Assembly: GCA_016705685.1 (NCBI GenBank)
Contig: JADJLB010000012.1
Location: forward strand, 124,001-188,000
DNA: 64,000 nucleotides
Source: Propionivibrio sp.
Lineage (GTDB): Bacteria; Pseudomonadota; Gammaproteobacteria; Burkholderiales; Rhodocyclaceae
Reading direction: 5' to 3'
The position numbers and the translations under genes were made by a program. Positions 10,178 to 23,495 of the stretch are shown in pieces. The notes beneath the pieces are model-generated. The model worked only from the letters and a program-made list of their open reading frames with translations, did not search any database and was not told the origin of the DNA. How positions within the stretch are numbered: position 1 is the stretch's first letter; each line of letters opens with the position of its first letter.

Positions 10178-10567
10178 TCAGCGCCCAGCCGCTGATCCGC
10201 CCTGGCCACCACCACCGCCCTGCCCGCCCCGTTCAGGACGGCACGCCAAAGGTTTTTCGCCCTGCCCCGACGCCCCACCCTGGCCGCCTTCTGAGGAGGA
10301 ATTCTGACGAGGTGGCGGCGAAAAACAGGAGCCGCTCACCTGATTGTTCTGGCGCCCGGCAAAGCTGCACGCCGCACCACTCGCTTTGCCTTTGCAGGCA
10401 GCGATGGCTTGCGGCGGTGGCCCTTGATGCTGCCCCCCGCCCTGCCCGCCGCCTTGATTGCCTGAATTCATATTCTGCCCGCCACCTTGCATGGGGCCGC
10501 TCTGTGCGCAAACACCCGCAGCAAAGCCCGCAAGCAGCAGCGCAATGCTGATCTTTTTCATGACCAT
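10178..10567 (-). CDS. Secreted Gly/Gln-rich protein with short Cys motif
   Basis: This 129-residue protein has a clear signal peptide (KKISIALLLAGFAAGVCAQ). After it come low-complexity Gly/Gln tracts and a central segment with the pattern ACKGKxxGxxCSFxGRxxxxVSGSC, ending LACRP. That Cys-spaced pattern is familiar from small secreted proteobacterial proteins of unknown role. Four cysteines after the leader could form two disulphides. The C-terminus is again Gly-rich. An alternative start is the internal ATG two codons in, and a GGAGAA ribosome site lies just upstream. It is convergent with bluB. Function unknown. Confidence 0.75.
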   Translation of the reverse strand: MVMKKISIALLLAGFAAGVCAQSGPMQGGGQNMNSGNQGGGQGGGQHQGPPPQAIAACKGKASGAACSFAGRQNNQVSGSCFSPPPRQNSSSEGGQGGASGQGEKPLACRPERGGQGGGGGQGGSAAGR

Positions 10568-11813: not shown

Positions 11814-13298
11814 TTAACTGCCACACCCAGCGTCCACCGGGCTCACCTGGATCGCTCGCCCCGTCGCTCGCCGCTGCGTGGCCTGCGCAATGCCGGCACG
11901 GATTTCTTCGGTGCGCTGCGCGCGGTCGCCGCGATAGAAGAGGTTGAACGCCTCGAACGGGATGAGCCGGCCATCGGGCTGGGCGATATGCACACAGGAC
12001 TTCTTCAGCGCACGCAGGTCGAGGTTGTGCGCATCCATAAACTGCACGATGAGCACGCGGAAGACATTTTCATACGACAGCTGCGGCGCGTCGATGCGCG
12101 GCAGGCAGCACAGCAGATCCGAGAGACAACTGGCCTGACCTTCCGGCGACAGGTTGGTCGAAAAAAGGCGAAATACTTGCGCCTTGAGCGCCGGATCGCG
12201 CTCGAAAACGATGGTGCTGTGCGGCCCGGCGAGTAGCGCTTCGGGGCCGACGTGGCGGGTCAGCGGTTGCACATCATCGCCCAGTCGCAGCGCGTAGCCC
12301 ATGGCCAGCGTATCCGGATTGCATGGCACGGGAACAATGTCTTCCAGACTGAATACGCCCGACTGCTCGGCAATGCGCCGGCGCAACTCGCTTACCGTCA
12401 GCCGGCGATGCTGCGCGCCGGGCTGCGCATCGAGCCCCTCGTTGCGGCCGGCCGATTGCTCGGGCTGCAGCGTCACGCCGCGCACGCAGCGCCACTGCAG
12501 CGCGTGGCGGATCACTTCGCCGATTTCGTCTTGGTTCACGCCGCGCCGCACGGTCATCACCAGCGTTGTCGAGATGCCGTGCGCTTCAAGCTGTTCCAGC
12601 GCGCGCCGATGCACCTCGGCGAGATTGGCGCCGCGCATGGCTTGCAGCGCTTCGTCGCGCAACGAATCGAATTGCAGGTAGATCTCCAGCCCCGGCTTGT
12701 AATCGGCCAGACGAGCGACAAAATCGGGTTCGCGGCCAATGCGCAAACCATTGGTATTGACCATCAGATGGCGGATCGGTCGCGCCCGCGCCGCATCGAG
12801 GATGGCGAAGAAATCCGGATGCAGCGTCGGCTCGCCGCCCGAAATCTGCACCACATCGGGTTCGCCTTCGTTGGCCACCACGGCGTCGAGCATTGCCTCG
12901 ATCTCGGCCAACGTGCGGTGCTTCAGGCGCTCCGGCCCGGACTCGGCAAAACACACCGGGCAACGCAGATTGCAGTGCTCGGTGATTTCGATCAGCGTCA
13001 GGCAGGAATGCTGCATGTGGTCGGGACACAAGCCGCAGTCGTACGGGCAACCATACGTCATTTGCGTATTGAAGCGCTCGGGCATTTCCGGTGCTTTGAC
13101 ATACACCTCGCGCGCCAGTTTGTACCACGCCGCATCGTCGCTGATCAGCACGCGCTCGATACCATGCGCCGGGCACCATTTTTCCAGAAAGACCGATTCG
13201 TCCTTGATCAGAACCTTCGCTTCGACCACCTGCAGACAGGTCGAGCAGACCGAGGAAGTGGTGTCGTAGAACAGATAGGGGCGGTTCTTGCGGCTCAC
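11814..13298 (-). CDS. Radical SAM protein of the Tes/MJ0619-like type
   Basis: Numbering is from a GTG start at 13298, whose GTGA overlaps the stop of the Lgt-like gene; an in-frame ATG at 13382 would lie inside that gene. The protein has 494 residues. An N-terminal zinc/rubredoxin-like module has C18, C21, C42 and H45. A second cluster follows at C84, C88, C91 and C99 (CPYDCGLCPDHMQHSC). The radical SAM triad is C109, C113, C116 (CNLRCPVC), then the GGEPT SAM-binding motif. This layout matches my memory of archaeal tetraether synthase and its bacterial relatives, which join lipid alkyl chains. Substrate here is unknown. The pairing with an Lgt-like gene supports a lipid role. Confidence 0.82.
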   Translation of the reverse strand: MSRKNRPYLFYDTTSSVCSTCLQVVEAKVLIKDESVFLEKWCPAHGIERVLISDDAAWYKLAREVYVKAPEMPERFNTQMTYGCPYDCGLCPDHMQHSCLTLIEITEHCNLRCPVCFAESGPERLKHRTLAEIEAMLDAVVANEGEPDVVQISGGEPTLHPDFFAILDAARARPIRHLMVNTNGLRIGREPDFVARLADYKPGLEIYLQFDSLRDEALQAMRGANLAEVHRRALEQLEAHGISTTLVMTVRRGVNQDEIGEVIRHALQWRCVRGVTLQPEQSAGRNEGLDAQPGAQHRRLTVSELRRRIAEQSGVFSLEDIVPVPCNPDTLAMGYALRLGDDVQPLTRHVGPEALLAGPHSTIVFERDPALKAQVFRLFSTNLSPEGQASCLSDLLCCLPRIDAPQLSYENVFRVLIVQFMDAHNLDLRALKKSCVHIAQPDGRLIPFEAFNLFYRGDRAQRTEEIRAGIAQATQRRATGRAIQVSPVDAGCGS

Positions 13299-14053
13299 GA
13301 TTCCGCTTCCAGGGCCAACAAGCGAACCCCGCGCCAGTGGCGTACTACGGAGGGCAGATAGCTCACAAGGGCCAGAATACAAACGGCCTGGATACCCGAC
13401 AGACCGCCGGGAAATTCATACGGCACCGGCTTGAGAAAATCGACCAGCAGACGCCACAGCAGGTAGGCGCTCAGCATCAGCTTGAACAGCAAGCCCGGCG
13501 TTCCTGCCAGCATCGGTTGCATTCGGCGCAGCCATGCCCAGAGCAATCCCGCGAAAACAATTTCGTACAACTGTGTCGGGTGACGCGCAACGCCGTCGCC
13601 AAAATCGATTCCCCACGGCAGGTTCGTCGCGATGCCGTAGGTACCATCGGACAAGCCGGCGAGAAAGCAGCCCATACGACCGATCATCAAGCCCAGCAGT
13701 ACCGGGAAGACGAAATCGTCGCCGGTTGACCGTGTTATTCCGGTCAGCTTCTTTGCCAGCTCGACGCCAAGCAGGCCACCGAGCAGCCCACCGACCATCG
13801 ACTGCCCGGCAAGAAGAACTACCGGCTGATCCCAGTATTGGGTGAGCAGATGCGGGAACTCGGCCCAGAAGACGAGTTTGTTGCCCAGCGCGGCGCCAAA
13901 TACACAACCGAGCACCACGCCAAAATCCTTGCCCATGAGCAGGCCCGGGGCACCAGTTCGGCGACGCAAGATGCGGTAATACTGAACGCCGGTAAACAGC
14001 CCCAGCGCTTCGAAAAGAGGGTGAACCCACGGATAGGCCGTGACGGATGGCAC
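13295..14053 (-). CDS. Prolipoprotein diacylglyceryl transferase-like membrane protein, divergent
   Basis: This 252-residue polytopic membrane protein has the Lgt fold signature: GRMGCFLAG (R126), RHPTQLYE and a LLVDFLKP ending. True Lgt moves diacylglycerol from phosphatidylglycerol to a lipobox cysteine. Two residues held essential in E. coli Lgt look altered: the His of the FHGG motif is Val here (SMVGG, V87), and the Asn of GRxGNF is Cys (C129). It is therefore probably not the housekeeping Lgt, which should be elsewhere. It overlaps the radical SAM gene by 4 bp and follows the small membrane gene by 3 bp, so the three form an operon. Confidence 0.8.
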   Translation of the reverse strand: MPSVTAYPWVHPLFEALGLFTGVQYYRILRRRTGAPGLLMGKDFGVVLGCVFGAALGNKLVFWAEFPHLLTQYWDQPVVLLAGQSMVGGLLGGLLGVELAKKLTGITRSTGDDFVFPVLLGLMIGRMGCFLAGLSDGTYGIATNLPWGIDFGDGVARHPTQLYEIVFAGLLWAWLRRMQPMLAGTPGLLFKLMLSAYLLWRLLVDFLKPVPYEFPGGLSGIQAVCILALVSYLPSVVRHWRGVRLLALEAES

Positions 14054-14056
14054 GGG

Positions 14057-14359
14057 CTACTTGCCCTCCGCGTCATTCGAGTCGCTCGTGTTGTCCGCTG
14101 GCGATTTGCTCTCCTCCCGCTGCACGTTCTGCGCGGCAGATGTCTTCCGGATAATCCGTATCGCGGCCCAAAAGACAAGGCTGCCAATCAGGATCGATAC
14201 CAGCCCGACCGCTGCAAAAACACCTCCGAAGCCGTCCGATTTTTCGACCAGGGGCAGTACGACGCAGAAACCGCCGCCCAGGATGAGTGCGAAACCAAAC
14301 AGCAACAGAAATATCTTGATGATCCAGAAAACGAAATTGCCGAAAGCTTCCATGGTCAC
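14057..14359 (-). CDS. Small two-helix membrane protein, first gene of the Lgt-like/radical SAM operon
   Basis: The 100-residue protein has two hydrophobic helices (about residues 8-35 and 45-68) and a charged Ser/Asp/Asn-rich tail. No family is recognised. The 3-bp gap to the Lgt-like gene makes co-transcription very likely. It may be an accessory or anchoring subunit of the putative lipid-modifying pair. The ATG at 14353 (second codon pair) is an alternative start; a GGGAGTGACC ribosome site lies directly upstream. Confidence 0.7.
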   Translation of the reverse strand: MTMEAFGNFVFWIIKIFLLLFGFALILGGGFCVVLPLVEKSDGFGGVFAAVGLVSILIGSLVFWAAIRIIRKTSAAQNVQREESKSPADNTSDSNDAEGK

Positions 14360-15258: not shown

Positions 15259-16614
15259 ATGCCCAACGCCGCGAAGCCGTTCGCAGCACTCCCCGCCGGC
15301 CTCAGCCAGCGTTACGAAATTCGTAGCGAACTCGGGCGCGGCGCCACGGGAACGGTGTATCTCGCCCAGGATACTTTTGCCCAGCGCGAGGTGGCGCTGA
15401 AAGTCGCTCATGCCAGCGTCTTCAACGATGACCCCGCGCAGGCCCTGGTACGTAAAGCCTGGTTGAACGAGGTGCATCTGGCCGGCAGTCTGCACCACCC
15501 CTACATCGTCGAAATATACGACGCCGGTTTTGGCGACAACAGCGCCTATCTGGCCATGGAATACCTTGCACACGGCACCCTGGAGCCTTACACCAAAGCC
15601 GATACGCTCAAGCCGGTCTCCGAAGTGCTGGAGATCGCCTACAAATGCGCCAGCGCGCTGAACTATGCTGGCCGCTCCGGGATCATTCATCGCGATATCA
15701 AACCGGCCAACCTGCAATATGTCGGCCCGGGCGAAGCCAAAGTTTGCGACTTTGGCGCCGCATACTGGTCTAGCAGCAACAACGAGGCCACGCAGGTCAT
15801 GGACATCGGTTCGCTGGCCTACATGGCGCCCGAGCTTTTTCGCCAATGGGTCACGCCGCAGGCGGACATCTACGCGCTGGGGGTTGTCCTGCACCAGTTA
15901 TTGACCGGCCAGCGCCCGTTCGACGCGCCCGATCAGGCGTCGCTGATGTACAAGATTCTGAACGGCGAGCGGGAACCGCTGACGAGTTTTCGCCACGATC
16001 TGCCAACCAACCTGAACGCATTGCTCGACAAAATGCTCGCGCGCAGTCTGGAAGACCGTTTTGCCAACTGGCCGTCGGTTCTCTCGGCGCTCTCATCGCA
16101 CATCACCGCGACCTTGAGAATGAAACCGGCGGCCAACCGACGACCTGCCGAAGCGGAACTGTATGACCAATTGCGCAAACTGCCCTTGCTCGCCTCGCTC
16201 AACGACGCCCAGCTGTGGGAACTCCTGCGCATTTCACGGTGGCGCAAAATCAAGGCTGGAACGGTGCTGATGCGCGAAGGTGACGACGCGCTTTCGTGTT
16301 ACCTGCTGCTCAAGGGCGAGGCCACAGTTACGCAGAAAGGTCAGCTGATCGCTCTGCTGAATCCGGGCACGCTGTTTGGCGAACTTGCCTTTGCCGAAGA
16401 AACGCCTGCGCCGCGCGCCGCAACATTGACCGCCACCTGCGACGGAATCATAGGCAAATGGCCCAACGCCCGACTCAATACGGCCTCGACCGGGCTGCAA
16501 TCGGAAATGCTCAAAATCTTCTTCCGGCTATCCACCGAACGGCTCAAACAGGCGGATGAGCGTTATCTGCGACTGTGTCGGCACTATAGCCCGAACGGGA
16601 ATTCCGACGCCTGA
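15259..16614 (+). CDS. Serine/threonine protein kinase fused to a cyclic-nucleotide-binding-like domain
   Basis: Residues about 18-280 form a Hanks-type kinase: glycine loop ELGRGATGTVY, lysine in REVALKVAH, catalytic loop HRDIKPANL, metal-binding DFGAAYW and substrate segment SLAYMAPELF. Residues about 310-430 look like a cNMP-binding (CRP/FNR effector) domain: AGTVLMREGDDALSCYLLLKGEA and GTLFGELAFAEE. There is no transmembrane segment, unlike PknB-type kinases. The fusion suggests kinase activity gated by a nucleotide. It lies between a receiver protein and a YhcC-like gene. Confidence 0.9.
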   Translation: MPNAAKPFAALPAGLSQRYEIRSELGRGATGTVYLAQDTFAQREVALKVAHASVFNDDPAQALVRKAWLNEVHLAGSLHHPYIVEIYDAGFGDNSAYLAMEYLAHGTLEPYTKADTLKPVSEVLEIAYKCASALNYAGRSGIIHRDIKPANLQYVGPGEAKVCDFGAAYWSSSNNEATQVMDIGSLAYMAPELFRQWVTPQADIYALGVVLHQLLTGQRPFDAPDQASLMYKILNGEREPLTSFRHDLPTNLNALLDKMLARSLEDRFANWPSVLSALSSHITATLRMKPAANRRPAEAELYDQLRKLPLLASLNDAQLWELLRISRWRKIKAGTVLMREGDDALSCYLLLKGEATVTQKGQLIALLNPGTLFGELAFAEETPAPRAATLTATCDGIIGKWPNARLNTASTGLQSEMLKIFFRLSTERLKQADERYLRLCRHYSPNGNSDA

Positions 16615-16636: not shown

Positions 16637-17599
16637 ATGAACGCTTTTGACGAATGCGTGGCCCGTTTTTTTGGCCACCGTTACCACGCCTACAACGACT
16701 GGGCCAAACACGAATACGGCGGCCGTCTGCAAAAGGTCTCCATCGACGCTGGATTCACCTGCCCAAACCGCGATGGTTCGCTTGGCATCGGCGGCTGTAC
16801 TTACTGCAACAACGAGGGCTTTTCACCGAGTTACCTGCTCGAACAACGCGACATCTTCACCCAGATCGACACCGGTATCGAGTTCATGCGGCGGCGCTAT
16901 CCGAAAACCAAGGCATTCATTGCGTACTTCCAGAGCTATTCGAATACCTACGACGATCTTGATGCGCTGAAACAGGTCTATGGCCTCGCGCTGTCGCACC
17001 CGGACATAGCCGGAATCGCCATCGGGACGCGACCCGATTGCCTGCCTGAGGAAACGCTCGATTATCTTGCCGAGCTGGCGACCCGTACGATGGTGGAACT
17101 GGAAATCGGCATTGAATCCTGCAACGACGACGTACTCGAGGAATGCCTGCGCGGACACGATTTTGCCTGCACCCAGGACGCCATCCGGCGTGCGGCCAAG
17201 CGCGATCTGTTCGTCACCGGGCACCTCCTGCTTGGCCTGCCGCTCGAAAGCCGAGACAGCCTTATCGCTGGCGCCAGGGCGCTGGCAGCCTTGCCCCTCG
17301 ACGCGCTGAAGTTCCACCAACTGCAGATTGTGCGGGGTACGCGACTGGCCAATCTGTACCGCGCCGCGCCGGACAGCATTTCCTTGCTCACTCCCGAAAG
17401 CTACCTTGATGCGGTGATCGACATGCTCGAACTGCTTCCGCCGGGCATCAAGATTCAGCGGCTGGGCAGCGAGGTTCCACCGAGTGTGCTCGTCTCACCC
17501 GACTGGGGAATGCGACTTTTCAAGTTCCCGGCCATGCTCGAAGCAAAACTGGAAGCCCGAAACACCTGGCAGGGCAGGCTGTATTGCGCGCACGCGTAA
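16637..17599 (+). CDS. YhcC-like radical SAM protein (TIGR01212 type)
   Basis: This 320-residue radical SAM protein has cysteines in CPNRDGSLGIGGCTYCNN, the extended spacing typical of the YhcC/TIGR01212 group. GHLLLGLPLESRD and GIKIQRLGSEVPP are also group-like. The exact reaction is not established to my knowledge. It starts 22 bp after the kinase stop, so it probably shares its transcript. It is unrelated to the signalling genes by obvious function. Confidence 0.88.
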   Translation: MNAFDECVARFFGHRYHAYNDWAKHEYGGRLQKVSIDAGFTCPNRDGSLGIGGCTYCNNEGFSPSYLLEQRDIFTQIDTGIEFMRRRYPKTKAFIAYFQSYSNTYDDLDALKQVYGLALSHPDIAGIAIGTRPDCLPEETLDYLAELATRTMVELEIGIESCNDDVLEECLRGHDFACTQDAIRRAAKRDLFVTGHLLLGLPLESRDSLIAGARALAALPLDALKFHQLQIVRGTRLANLYRAAPDSISLLTPESYLDAVIDMLELLPPGIKIQRLGSEVPPSVLVSPDWGMRLFKFPAMLEAKLEARNTWQGRLYCAHA

Positions 17600-21786: not shown

Positions 21787-22143
21787 ATGCCGATTCCCGC
21801 CTCACTCATCGCCTCGATTGTCAGCGCCATCATCGAAACTGCGGCGCAAAGCCCTACGAGGGATCCCTCGCAATACGAGATTTATGCCACGACCCGCACG
21901 TTGCCGCCGGAGGCCAAGACGGGCGTCATGCTGCCGCCATTGGGGGATGGCCTCGTCGTGATCAACGGCCAGCCGATGCGGCTGGCGCCGACCGCCCAGT
22001 TTCGCAGCGAGCGCAATCTCATCGTCATGACCATGAGCATCCAGAAGCCGTCCGAGGTCGTTTACCTCACCGATACCTCCGGTGCGATATACCGCGTATG
22101 GATGCTCAGCCTGTCCGAATCTTCAGCTCATCAAAAAAACTGA
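21787..22143 (+). CDS. Small protein of unknown function upstream of miaB
   Basis: This 118-residue protein has a weakly hydrophobic start ([16 protein letters not shown]) and a beta-rich remainder ([37 protein letters not shown]). It could be a small beta-sheet protein; no family recognised. TATAAT lies at 21775-21780, only 6 bp before the ATG. If that is the -10 box, the mRNA would be nearly leaderless. It ends 8 bp before the miaB start, so it may lead the miaB operon. Confidence 0.65.
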
Positions 22144-22151
22144 TCCGCAAT

Positions 22152-23495
22152 ATGCCAAAAAAACTGTTCATCCGCACCTTCGGGTGCCAGATGAACGAGT
22201 ACGACTCGGACAAAATGGCCGATGTGCTCGCTGCCTCTGAAGACATCGTCAAGACCGACAACCCTGAAGATGCGGATATCATCCTGTTCAACACCTGTTC
22301 GGTGCGCGAAAAGGCGCAGGAGCGTGTTTTTCACGACCTCGGCCGGGTGCGCCTGCTCAAGCGGACCAAGCCCGATCTGGTGATCGGCGTTGGCGGTTGC
22401 GTCGCCAGCCAGGAGGGAGCCGCCATCATCGCCCGGGCGCCTTATGTTGATATCGTTTTCGGCCCGCAGACCCTGCATCGCCTGCCGCAATTGATTGCTG
22501 ACAAGCGGCGTCTTGGCCGATCGCAAGTCGATATCTCCTTCCCGGAAATCGAGAAATTCGACCGGTTGCCACCGGCCAAGGTTGACGGCGCGTCGGCTTT
22601 CGTCTCGATCATGGAGGGTTGCAGCAAGTACTGCACCTTCTGCATCGTTCCCTACACGCGCGGCGAGGAAGTCTCGCGCCCCTTCGACGACGTCCTGACC
22701 GAAGTGGCCGGTCTGGCCGCGCAGGGTGTCAAGGAAATCACGCTGCTCGGGCAGAACGTCAATGCCTACCGTGGGGCAATGGCGGCGGGCAACGATCATT
22801 CCGGCGACACCGCGGACCTGGCCTTGCTTATCGAATATATCGCCGAAATTCCGGGCATTGAACGAATCCGCTTTACGACCTCGCATCCGCGCGAAGTCAC
22901 GCCGCGGCTGATCGAGGCTTTCGCCACCGTGCCCAAACTGGTTTCGCATCTGCACCTGCCGGTGCAATCGGGCTCGGATCGCGTGCTGGCGGCGATGAAG
23001 CGCGGCCACACGGCGATCGAATACAAAAGCCTGGTACGGAAACTGCGCACCGCGCGCCCCGATTTATCCCTGTCTTCCGACTTCATCGTCGGCTTTCCCG
23101 GTGAAACTGCCGAAGATTTCGAGAAGACCATGAAGCTGATCGATGCCGTCGGTTTCGACGCCTCCTTTTCTTTTCTTTACAGCTCCCGACCCGGCACGCC
23201 GGCCGCCGAACTGCACGACGACACGCCGCACGCGCTTCGTCTCGAACGATTGATGCGCCTGCAAAAGCGCATCGAAGAACTTTCGCAAAGCGTCTCGCAA
23301 TCGATGGTCGGCAGCGTCCAGCGCGTGCTGGTCGAAGGCCAGTCGAAAAAGGACAAGACCGAATTGGCCGGGCGTACCGATAACAACCGCATCGTCAATT
23401 TCATCGGCGATCCCCGGCTGATGCACAGTTTCGTCGACCTGAGCATCAGCTCCGCCATGCCGCATTCGCTGCGAGGCGAAATGTTGCCCGCCTGA
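22152..23495 (+). CDS. miaB: tRNA-2-methylthio-N6-dimethylallyladenosine synthase MiaB
   Basis: MiaB inserts a methylthio group at tRNA position A37 using two [4Fe-4S] clusters. The N-terminal UPF0004 domain carries [23 protein letters not shown] and GGCVASQEG; the radical SAM motif is [22 protein letters not shown]-like C-terminal segment follows. I use the ATG at 22152 ([11 protein letters not shown], 447 residues); the frame is open from 22098 within the preceding gene. The next gene, phoH-like, starts within 20 bp, the usual betaproteobacterial order. Confidence 0.96.

Follow-up and report, generated by a model that had tools for sequence, protein, structure and literature searches.

Here we describe a three-gene module on the minus strand of a 64,000-nucleotide stretch of DNA from Propionivibrio sp. 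(NCBI GenBank assembly GCA_016705685.1, contig JADJLB010000012.1, positions 124,001 to 188,000 of the forward strand; hereafter the window), which encodes a small membrane protein with a conserved Cys, a relative of the lipoprotein lipidation enzyme Lgt, and a radical S-adenosylmethionine (SAM) enzyme related to tetraether synthase (Tes). That the three genes constitute one module is close to certain in our judgement, and the third, tiny gene is a member of it and more than a neighbour, which is new here. Our favoured explanation, to which we give a probability of about 45%, is that the module modifies a dedicated small membrane protein, whose Cys is lipidated by the Lgt-like enzyme with a lipid tailored by the radical SAM enzyme. 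Among the parts of this explanation, the prediction from sequence that the Cys is the lipid acceptor stands slightly above even odds, the lipid has about an even chance of being the substrate of the radical SAM enzyme, and we infer that the three genes act jointly.

According to this mechanism, the Lgt-like protein would bind a phospholipid through its retained phosphate-binding residues, Arg126 and Arg201, and would transfer the lipid part to the conserved Cys of the small protein. This acceptor would lie at the outer end of an in-to-out transmembrane (TM) helix, which is the site that canonical Lgt reads in a prolipoprotein. On the cytoplasmic side, the radical SAM enzyme would make a 5'-deoxyadenosyl radical and alter the hydrocarbon part of the lipid, and such tailoring would precede the transfer because an Fe-S enzyme works in the cytoplasm and the Cys points outward. 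The original prediction had proposed an unusual membrane lipid or a lipid-modified product; no direct evidence was obtained for a free membrane-spanning lipid, and the balance moves towards a lipid-modified protein because the small membrane protein has a kept Cys.

Conservation and Distribution of the Gene Pair

The open reading frames (ORFs) confirmed the prediction of three packed minus-strand genes, two of them 3 bp apart and two overlapping by 4 bp (GTGA): the gap between the small-protein and Lgt-like genes is 14054-14056 and the overlap of the Lgt-like and radical SAM genes is 13295-13298. All three genes of the proposed operon are present. The Cys of the small membrane protein had been overlooked.

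Profiles of the two enzyme families were searched against 398 Pseudomonadota genomes, scoring per genome the best four (radical SAM) or six (Lgt-like) first-look candidates. The radical SAM family was found in 12 genomes (8 of 213 genera), every match reaching at least 613 bits, and the Lgt-like family gave 12 matches above 120 bits (the next being 90 bits) in the identical 12 genomes, none of them lying more than 0.9 kb from the radical SAM gene; five of the 12 belong to one genus, and the sample is not independent. A chance operon was rejected on the basis of this co-occurrence. A broader set of 96 loci with the radical SAM gene comprised 80 genome-contig stretches (the best 80 of at least 571 matching stretches), 11 further genomes, four plasmid records (seven of ten matched plasmid records were examined) and the window. 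An adjacent Lgt-like gene, defined by a start within 3.5 kb on either strand, was present at 91 of these loci, on the opposite strand at three of them. No adjacent Lgt-like gene was found at L012, L023, L025, L034 and L036, among which L012 and L025 are cut by a contig end and L034 has about 900 bases upstream.

Outside Pseudomonadota, the pair occurs in Persicobacter (Bacteroidota, L089), in Myxococcota, and in Actinomycetota, namely on plasmids of two Mycobacterium species (L093, L107) and in Nonomuraea (L092). The pair therefore recurs in other genomes, and the lack of conservation that had been named as refuting the prediction was not observed. Spread in a viral collection was rejected, as 29 IMG/VR stretches fit the pattern and none is a relative. 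Among the open PubMed Central (PMC) papers listed, none describing the radical SAM/Lgt-like pair was found, most subscription papers being outside the scope of the search. In passages of PMC8941075 and PMC11868695, bacterial Tes homologues are already in print as possible enzymes of branched glycerol dialkyl glycerol tetraethers (brGDGTs).

The Small Cysteine-Bearing Membrane Protein

The small protein has 100 amino acids when read from a GTG codon, but translation more probably starts at an ATG at 14353, which follows GGGGAG. Its Cys should be located at the outer face, because the sequence runs from a Lys through a first TM helix ending in GGGFC, a short loop and a second TM helix to a basic tail. 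The protein has no Pfam or NCBIfam family above cut-off, and no paralogue was found elsewhere in the window's genome (best other match E 0.06). Nine representatives of its counterparts and one lipoprotein-like neighbour had no Pfam family at cut-off, and seven had no NCBIfam family.

Counterparts in Pseudomonadota, Bacteroidota and Actinomycetota also have an in-to-out TM helix with a Cys at its outer end; they differ in gene position (upstream, between or downstream), topology (first or last TM helix) and sequence, with the geometry kept. In beta- and gammaproteobacteria the small protein mostly precedes the Lgt-like gene and the Cys ends the first TM helix (GFGLCG and similar), whereas it lies behind the radical SAM gene in Alphaproteobacteria-like genomes, several of which have a tandem pair (LPGLCA, CGGCG, SGLCS), and in Rhodanobacteraceae as well as L076 and L080, where the Cys is in the last TM helix (VAACFG, NGACFG). 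In Actinomycetota the last TM helix ends with the Cys, within GxCTGLNP or GxCTGINP, two such genes being present in both Mycobacterium plasmids. The Persicobacter counterpart, with the sequence IGTGICGSLLS, is a 59-amino-acid ORF in overlap with the end of the radical SAM gene. A Lys or Arg stands ahead of the Cys-bearing helix in all these lineage examples.

A rule for such an outer-end Cys was applied to ORFs of 45-230 amino acids: at least 12 uncharged residues before the Cys, a mean hydropathy of at least 1.6 over the preceding 16 residues, Gly, Ala or Ser at -1 or -2, and Lys or Arg farther upstream. It was passed by 68 of 275 small same-strand ORFs in module blocks versus 5 of 1155 in the flanks of the same loci (Fisher p 8e-46, a value that is overstated, like the other p-value below, given that related loci are not independent), with control ORFs drawn from both strands and module ORFs from one. 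Four of the five passing flank ORFs resemble ordinary lipoproteins. Under the strict rule, candidates were present in 57 of 86 complete blocks, nine of which had two or more; a looser look found candidates in 22 of the remaining 29 (79/86 together), and three more were accepted by eye, two without a small residue at -1 or -2 (L041, L057) and one that failed the rule otherwise (L042). A block-level control gave 76 of 85 module blocks versus 3 of 26 gene pairs elsewhere in the loci, with L037 and L076 scored as misses though other looks find candidates there.

No small Cys protein was found in four of the 86 complete blocks, inspected on both strands (L055, L079, L083) or on the same strand (L073), and these are the blocks whose sole Lgt-like protein keeps the Tyr equivalent to Tyr26 of Escherichia coli Lgt. 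Two blocks with both Tyr- and His-type Lgt-like proteins (L076 and L080) do have a small Cys protein. Overall, the Cys protein accompanies 79 of 82 His-type versus none of four Tyr-type blocks (Fisher p 3e-5, computed with 78/82), the Tyr-type side consisting of four loci from two lineages. Of all our observations, we consider that this match points most clearly to a joint function of the Cys protein and the His-type Lgt-like protein.

The Lgt-like Protein

The Lgt-like protein matches PF01790 with 71.4 bits (gathering score 24.9; E 9.4e-20), misses the cut-off of the TIGR00544 equivalog (34.3 versus 118.9 bits), and has an Lgt fold, its sole Foldseek match with E <= 0.001 being 5azb (E 3.8e-5). 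When mapped by hand, R143, Y235 and R239 of E. coli Lgt correspond to R126, Y197 and R201 and are all kept, whereas H103 and N146 are replaced by V87 and C129; Y26 corresponds to H11 by motif order, the MAFFT alignment of the canonical N-terminus being poor. Five residues are reported to be essential in E. coli (Y26, H103, R143, N146 and R239; residue roles as given in passages of PMC13251419), among which R143 and R239 are kept and the other three changed. The loss of H103 and N146 suggests that the transferred group may not be diacylglyceryl. Both the fold and these changes bear out the non-canonical Lgt-like partner that had been proposed.

Of 95 loci scanned, 90 yielded a total of 92 Lgt-like copies; position 146 is Cys in every copy and position 26 is His in 84, Tyr in six and cut in two, some rows of the family profile having been chosen by the GRxGC motif. 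Three further residues (E98, K101 and D112) are invariant in 21 Lgt-like rows and are not found in the canonical Lgt of the same genome. That separate Lgt scores 281 bits, and the Lgt-like protein was accordingly rejected as the housekeeping enzyme.

Neighbouring genes were clustered with calls from a codon-usage gene finder. At 27 of the 80 closest loci, the same strand carries a gene for a fusion of a major facilitator superfamily (MFS) transporter and an acyltransferase, of LplT/Aas type, which in 25 cases is no more than 725 bp upstream of the Lgt-like gene. It contains the Pfam domains MFS_1 and Acyltransferase, and its top NCBIfam match is acyl-[ACP]--phospholipid O-acyltransferase (555 bits, below cut-off). 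A cluster of Aas-type ligase genes was observed at 11 of the 80. LplT and Aas reacylate lysophospholipids.

The Radical SAM Protein

Matches of the radical SAM protein to PF04055 (1.4e-27) and PF23545 (Zn_ribbon_HMPTM, 2.2e-17) are accompanied by NCBIfam matches that fall short of their curated cut-offs: TrsS (NF045646), the top model, covers nearly its whole length with 322.1 bits (cut-off 490), and Tes (NF045702) gives 256.5 bits (cut-off 450). An orthologue of either was rejected on these grounds. Tes is the only close relative in the PDB (7tol, phmmer E 3.5e-58; profile E 9.4e-80). An AlphaFold model built from 30 sequences (predicted local distance difference test score 79.9, predicted TM-score 0.82, residues 358-405 of low confidence) has a full-length Tes-like fold in Foldseek (7tom E 5e-36, 7tol 3.7e-35, TM 0.74-0.76), the best non-Tes match being SkfB at 2e-9, with SuiB at about 1e-8.

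In an alignment of 31 rows (the window protein and 30 relatives), C42, H45, C84, C88, C91, C99, C109, C113 and C116 are invariant and C18 and C21 are at least 90% conserved; the metal-site residues are not a matter of chance, because they are conserved to this degree. The Cys and His positions given in the original prediction are correct, and its likening of their layout to Tes holds with the exception of C99, which aligns with Ile in Tes. Tes residues C9/C12/C33/H36 align with C18/C21/C42/H45, C73/C77/C80 with C84/C88/C91, and the CX3CX2C motif with C109/C113/C116. The fourth ligand of the N-terminal C73/C77/C80 cluster of Tes is a His, according to passages of PMC9433317. The same source, in part, describes Met439 and Tyr459 as fully conserved in 1000 archaeal Tes homologues and an M439A variant as retaining activity; the corresponding residues in the window are V418 and I438. 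Among the C-terminal Cys residues C326, C397, C398 and C435, only the last pairs with a Tes Cys. The protein is a relative of Tes and, by sequence, apparently not a Tes, because the cut-off is missed, Met439 and Tyr459 are changed and the C-terminal Cys set is different. The Tes-like character that had been predicted therefore stands for sequence architecture and fold and not for identity, and alignment did not place the protein in a characterised non-lipid radical SAM family.

A phylogenetic tree had long branches (Tes 5.0; one TrsS-like row 2.5), the branch uniting the proteobacterial, myxococcal and Persicobacter rows had support values of 88/93, under the programme's strong mark, and the tree was used solely to set apart three groups: those rows, three Actinomycetota rows, and Tes with the methyltransferase-linked rows. 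A partial relative (92% over residues 102-477) is present in Candidatus Propionivibrio aalborgensis (L025).

Evaluation of the Lipidation Hypothesis and Its Alternatives

Several observations, in addition to the overstated p-values and the four blocks without a Cys protein, weigh against lipidation of the small protein. Candidates in 25 of the 86 complete blocks are only loose or by-eye ones, those of L027, L030 and L037 are only lipoprotein-like or doubtful, and the opposite strand of L073 holds a gene with a lipoprotein-like start. Cys-bearing neighbours resemble ordinary lipoproteins at L021, L022, L037, L040 and L046. In a canonical bacterial lipoprotein, a cleavable N-terminal signal contains the lipobox [LVI][ASTVI][GAS]C, whereas the small protein has no canonical residues at -3 and -1 (Gly and Phe in GGFC) and a second TM helix follows. 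The alterations of Y26, H103 and N146 may mean that diacylglyceryl transfer is lost. Finally, no LplT/Aas-type gene was found in the window, and the copy in the window's genome (69% identical) is on another contig and is not tied to the module; the support of this neighbour for a lipid role is weak because of these two facts and the relatedness of the loci.

The foremost alternative, which we consider unlikely, is that the product is a lipid, such as tail-coupled phospholipids, with the Lgt-like protein positioning or remodelling the phospholipid and the small Cys protein being an accessory or structural subunit. The full-length Tes-like fold is consistent with such a role, since Tes couples lipid tails (passages of PMC9433317 and PMC8941075), and bacterial Tes homologues have been proposed, without confirmation, for brGDGT synthesis (PMC11868695, in part). 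However, Met439 and Tyr459 and the C-terminal Cys set differ from Tes, the portions consulted of the Tes and Mss accounts mention no Lgt partner, and a purely lipid product leaves unexplained why an outer-end Cys is kept across otherwise dissimilar small proteins.

Two further alternatives are less probable still and about equal to each other. In one, the Lgt-like protein would be an S-acyltransferase that uses a putative Cys129/His11 thiol site to move one acyl chain from a phospholipid to the Cys of the small protein, the resulting lysophospholipid being reacylated by LplT/Aas-type enzymes. The Cys in 92/92 copies, the His in 84/90 readable ones and the LplT/Aas-type genes upstream at 27/80 loci fit this proposal, but these genes are missing near most loci as well as from the window, the genomic copy elsewhere may imply that the link is plain synteny, and His11 is equated with Y26 by motif order alone. 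In the other, of the type of a ribosomally synthesized and post-translationally modified peptide (RiPP), the radical SAM enzyme would act in the cytoplasm on the small peptide itself, perhaps on its Cys, and the peptide would then be anchored or exported by the Lgt-like protein. A small variable peptide with one conserved Cys does adjoin the radical SAM enzyme, and the Foldseek matches below Tes include the peptide maturases SkfB and SuiB; on the other hand, no SPASM domain or RiPP recognition element appears among the Pfam matches of the enzyme to E 0.1, the peptides are integral membrane proteins, and a lipid enzyme is much the closest relative in structure.

Least probable among the alternatives is a second ordinary lipoprotein lipidation enzyme of altered specificity with the radical SAM gene as a hitch-hiker: the PF01790 fold, the lipoprotein-like proteins beside or between both genes at some loci, and a second mycobacterial Lgt with Y26H and N146C presumed to be weakly active (PMC13251419, in part) would agree with it, whereas the exact co-occurrence of both genes in the 398 genomes and the presence of the pair as far afield as Actinomycetota and Bacteroidota argue against it.

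Lipidation of the small protein by a tailored lipid might also take a more specific and quite improbable form, in which phospholipid tails, either those of two lipids or those facing each other across the membrane, are joined by the Tes-type enzyme before one head of the product is fixed on the Cys by the Lgt-like enzyme; the small proteins, paired at several loci, would then be held by a membrane-spanning or doubled lipid. If true, this would be a protein lipidation that uses a lipid from radical C-C coupling, from Pseudomonadota to Actinomycetota.

Bacterial Tes homologues on record number 456 in one account (PMC8941075) and come from 281 metagenome-assembled genomes in another (PMC11868695), and passages of both read them as possible makers of membrane-spanning lipids that serve as climate proxies. 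If this branch indeed lipidates a dedicated protein, homologues of this kind must be left out of tallies of tetraether producers, and three small genes would open a new protein-lipid chemistry to testing. For atypical N146C Lgt proteins, among them one described as presumably weak (PMC13251419, in part), the module further suggests both a partner and a substrate.

Coordinates and Neighbouring Genes

Table 1. Features of the module in the window.
Feature	Position	Strand	Evidence
Radical SAM enzyme, Tes/TrsS superfamily, 494 amino acids, GTG start	11814..13298	-	PF04055, PF23545, NCBIfam, PDB 7tol phmmer, Foldseek 7tom
Rubredoxin-like N-terminal metal site domain, C18/C21/C42/H45, residues 10-53	13140..13271	-	PF23545; aligned to Tes C9/C12/C33/H36
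Radical SAM cluster motif CX3CX2C, C109/C113/C116	12951..12974	-	Invariant in 31/31 rows
Lgt-like integral membrane protein, 252 amino acids, GTG start, Y26H/N146C/H103V type	13295..14053	-	PF01790 9.4e-20, Foldseek 5azb, residue mapping
Cys129 codon of Lgt-like protein (E. coli Lgt Asn146 position)	13667..13669	-	Cys in 92/92 Lgt-like copies
Small two-TM membrane protein, 98-100 amino acids, predicted lipid acceptor or partner	14057..14359	-	Counterparts at related loci
Cys32 codon of small protein (GTG numbering; Cys30 from ATG), predicted outer end of first TM helix, motif GGGFC	14264..14266	-	ALILGGGFCVVLPL; aligned with relatives' Cys

In core Myxococcaceae (L055, L079, L083), the divergent Tyr26-type N146C Lgt-like gene runs away from the radical SAM gene. 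A fatty acid hydroxylase gene (PF04116) lies between the two in L083, as a neighbour in place of the LplT/Aas-type gene, and a similar-looking gene is there in L055. The window's genome also has a second, broken-looking LplT/Aas-type copy. The M. branderi plasmid (L093:3060-4174) encodes two DUF3558-annotated proteins with lipoprotein-like N-termini immediately ahead of its Lgt-like gene. At L030 (4996-5454), a PEMT/ICMT-type methyltransferase gene (PF04191, 25.4 bits; cut-off 25) overlaps the end of the radical SAM gene, with no relative at other module loci; ICMT enzymes act on lipidated cysteines. Genes for a 2-oxoglutarate-Fe(II) oxygenase-like protein (10/80 loci) and a tetratricopeptide repeat (TPR) protein (7/80) occur near the pair in Rhodanobacteraceae, such as L051, L058, L065 and L077, where the TPR protein has a Cys ending its first hydrophobic stretch.

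Elsewhere in the window, the plus strand encodes a Ser/Thr protein kinase domain fused to a cyclic-nucleotide-binding domain (15259-16614; PF00069, PF00027) and two ordinary radical SAM proteins, of the MnmL/YtqA family (16637-17599; TIGR01212) and MiaB (22098-23495; TIGR01574). The minus strand encodes a 129-amino-acid, very Gly/Gln/Ser-rich protein with an export-signal-like start and no Pfam match to E 1e-5 (10178-10567).

Comparison with Known Systems

MYXO-CTERM/myxosortase anchoring resembles the proposed system in its invariant Cys, for which lipidation, perhaps by an Lgt-like enzyme, is predicted; the Cys there stands ahead of a C-terminal TM helix and an Arg-rich cytoplasmic tail (passages of PMC11980579), a layout that the small protein does not have, and the small protein has no TIGR03901 (MYXO-CTERM) match at E 0.1. 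Such genes are common in Myxococcota (PMC11980579, in part). At L073 (7526-10233), two genes behind the radical SAM gene encode proteins that end like MYXO-CTERM, with a GCGC-type tail, and score 16.7 and 19.5 bits against TIGR03901 (cut-off 20). A Tyr-type N146C Lgt-like protein of this sort is a candidate for the predicted MYXO-CTERM lipidation enzyme.

TrsS, a radical SAM (seleno)protein, is the best NCBIfam match of the radical SAM protein, which nevertheless falls below the cut-off; a methyltransferase, TrsM, is encoded beside TrsS. Unlike module loci, Mycolicibacterium and two haloarchaea have plasmid-borne relatives that adjoin a methyltransferase gene, the Mycolicibacterium one likewise remaining below the TrsS cut-off (335 bits). 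In tblastn searches (E <= 1e-3), three such methyltransferases (L090, L091, L094) had no match in the window or at any of 95 module loci, and the one adjoining the radical SAM gene at L030 differs from them.

Tes, or GDGT-MAS MJ0619 (7tol, 7tom), shares with the radical SAM protein the full-length domain order and fold, the rubredoxin-like site, the Cys residues of the N-terminal auxiliary cluster and CX3CX2C; unlike Tes, the window protein is accompanied by Lgt-like and small-protein partners. Canonical Lgt (5azb) shares with the Lgt-like protein the Pfam family, the fold and the equivalents of R143, R239 and Y235, and differs by H103V, N146C and, by motif order, Y26H. The closest parallel in residues is MSMEG_5408 of M. 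smegmatis, an atypical second Lgt of presumed low activity for which Y26H and N146C are reported, as in the Lgt-like protein (passages of PMC13251419).

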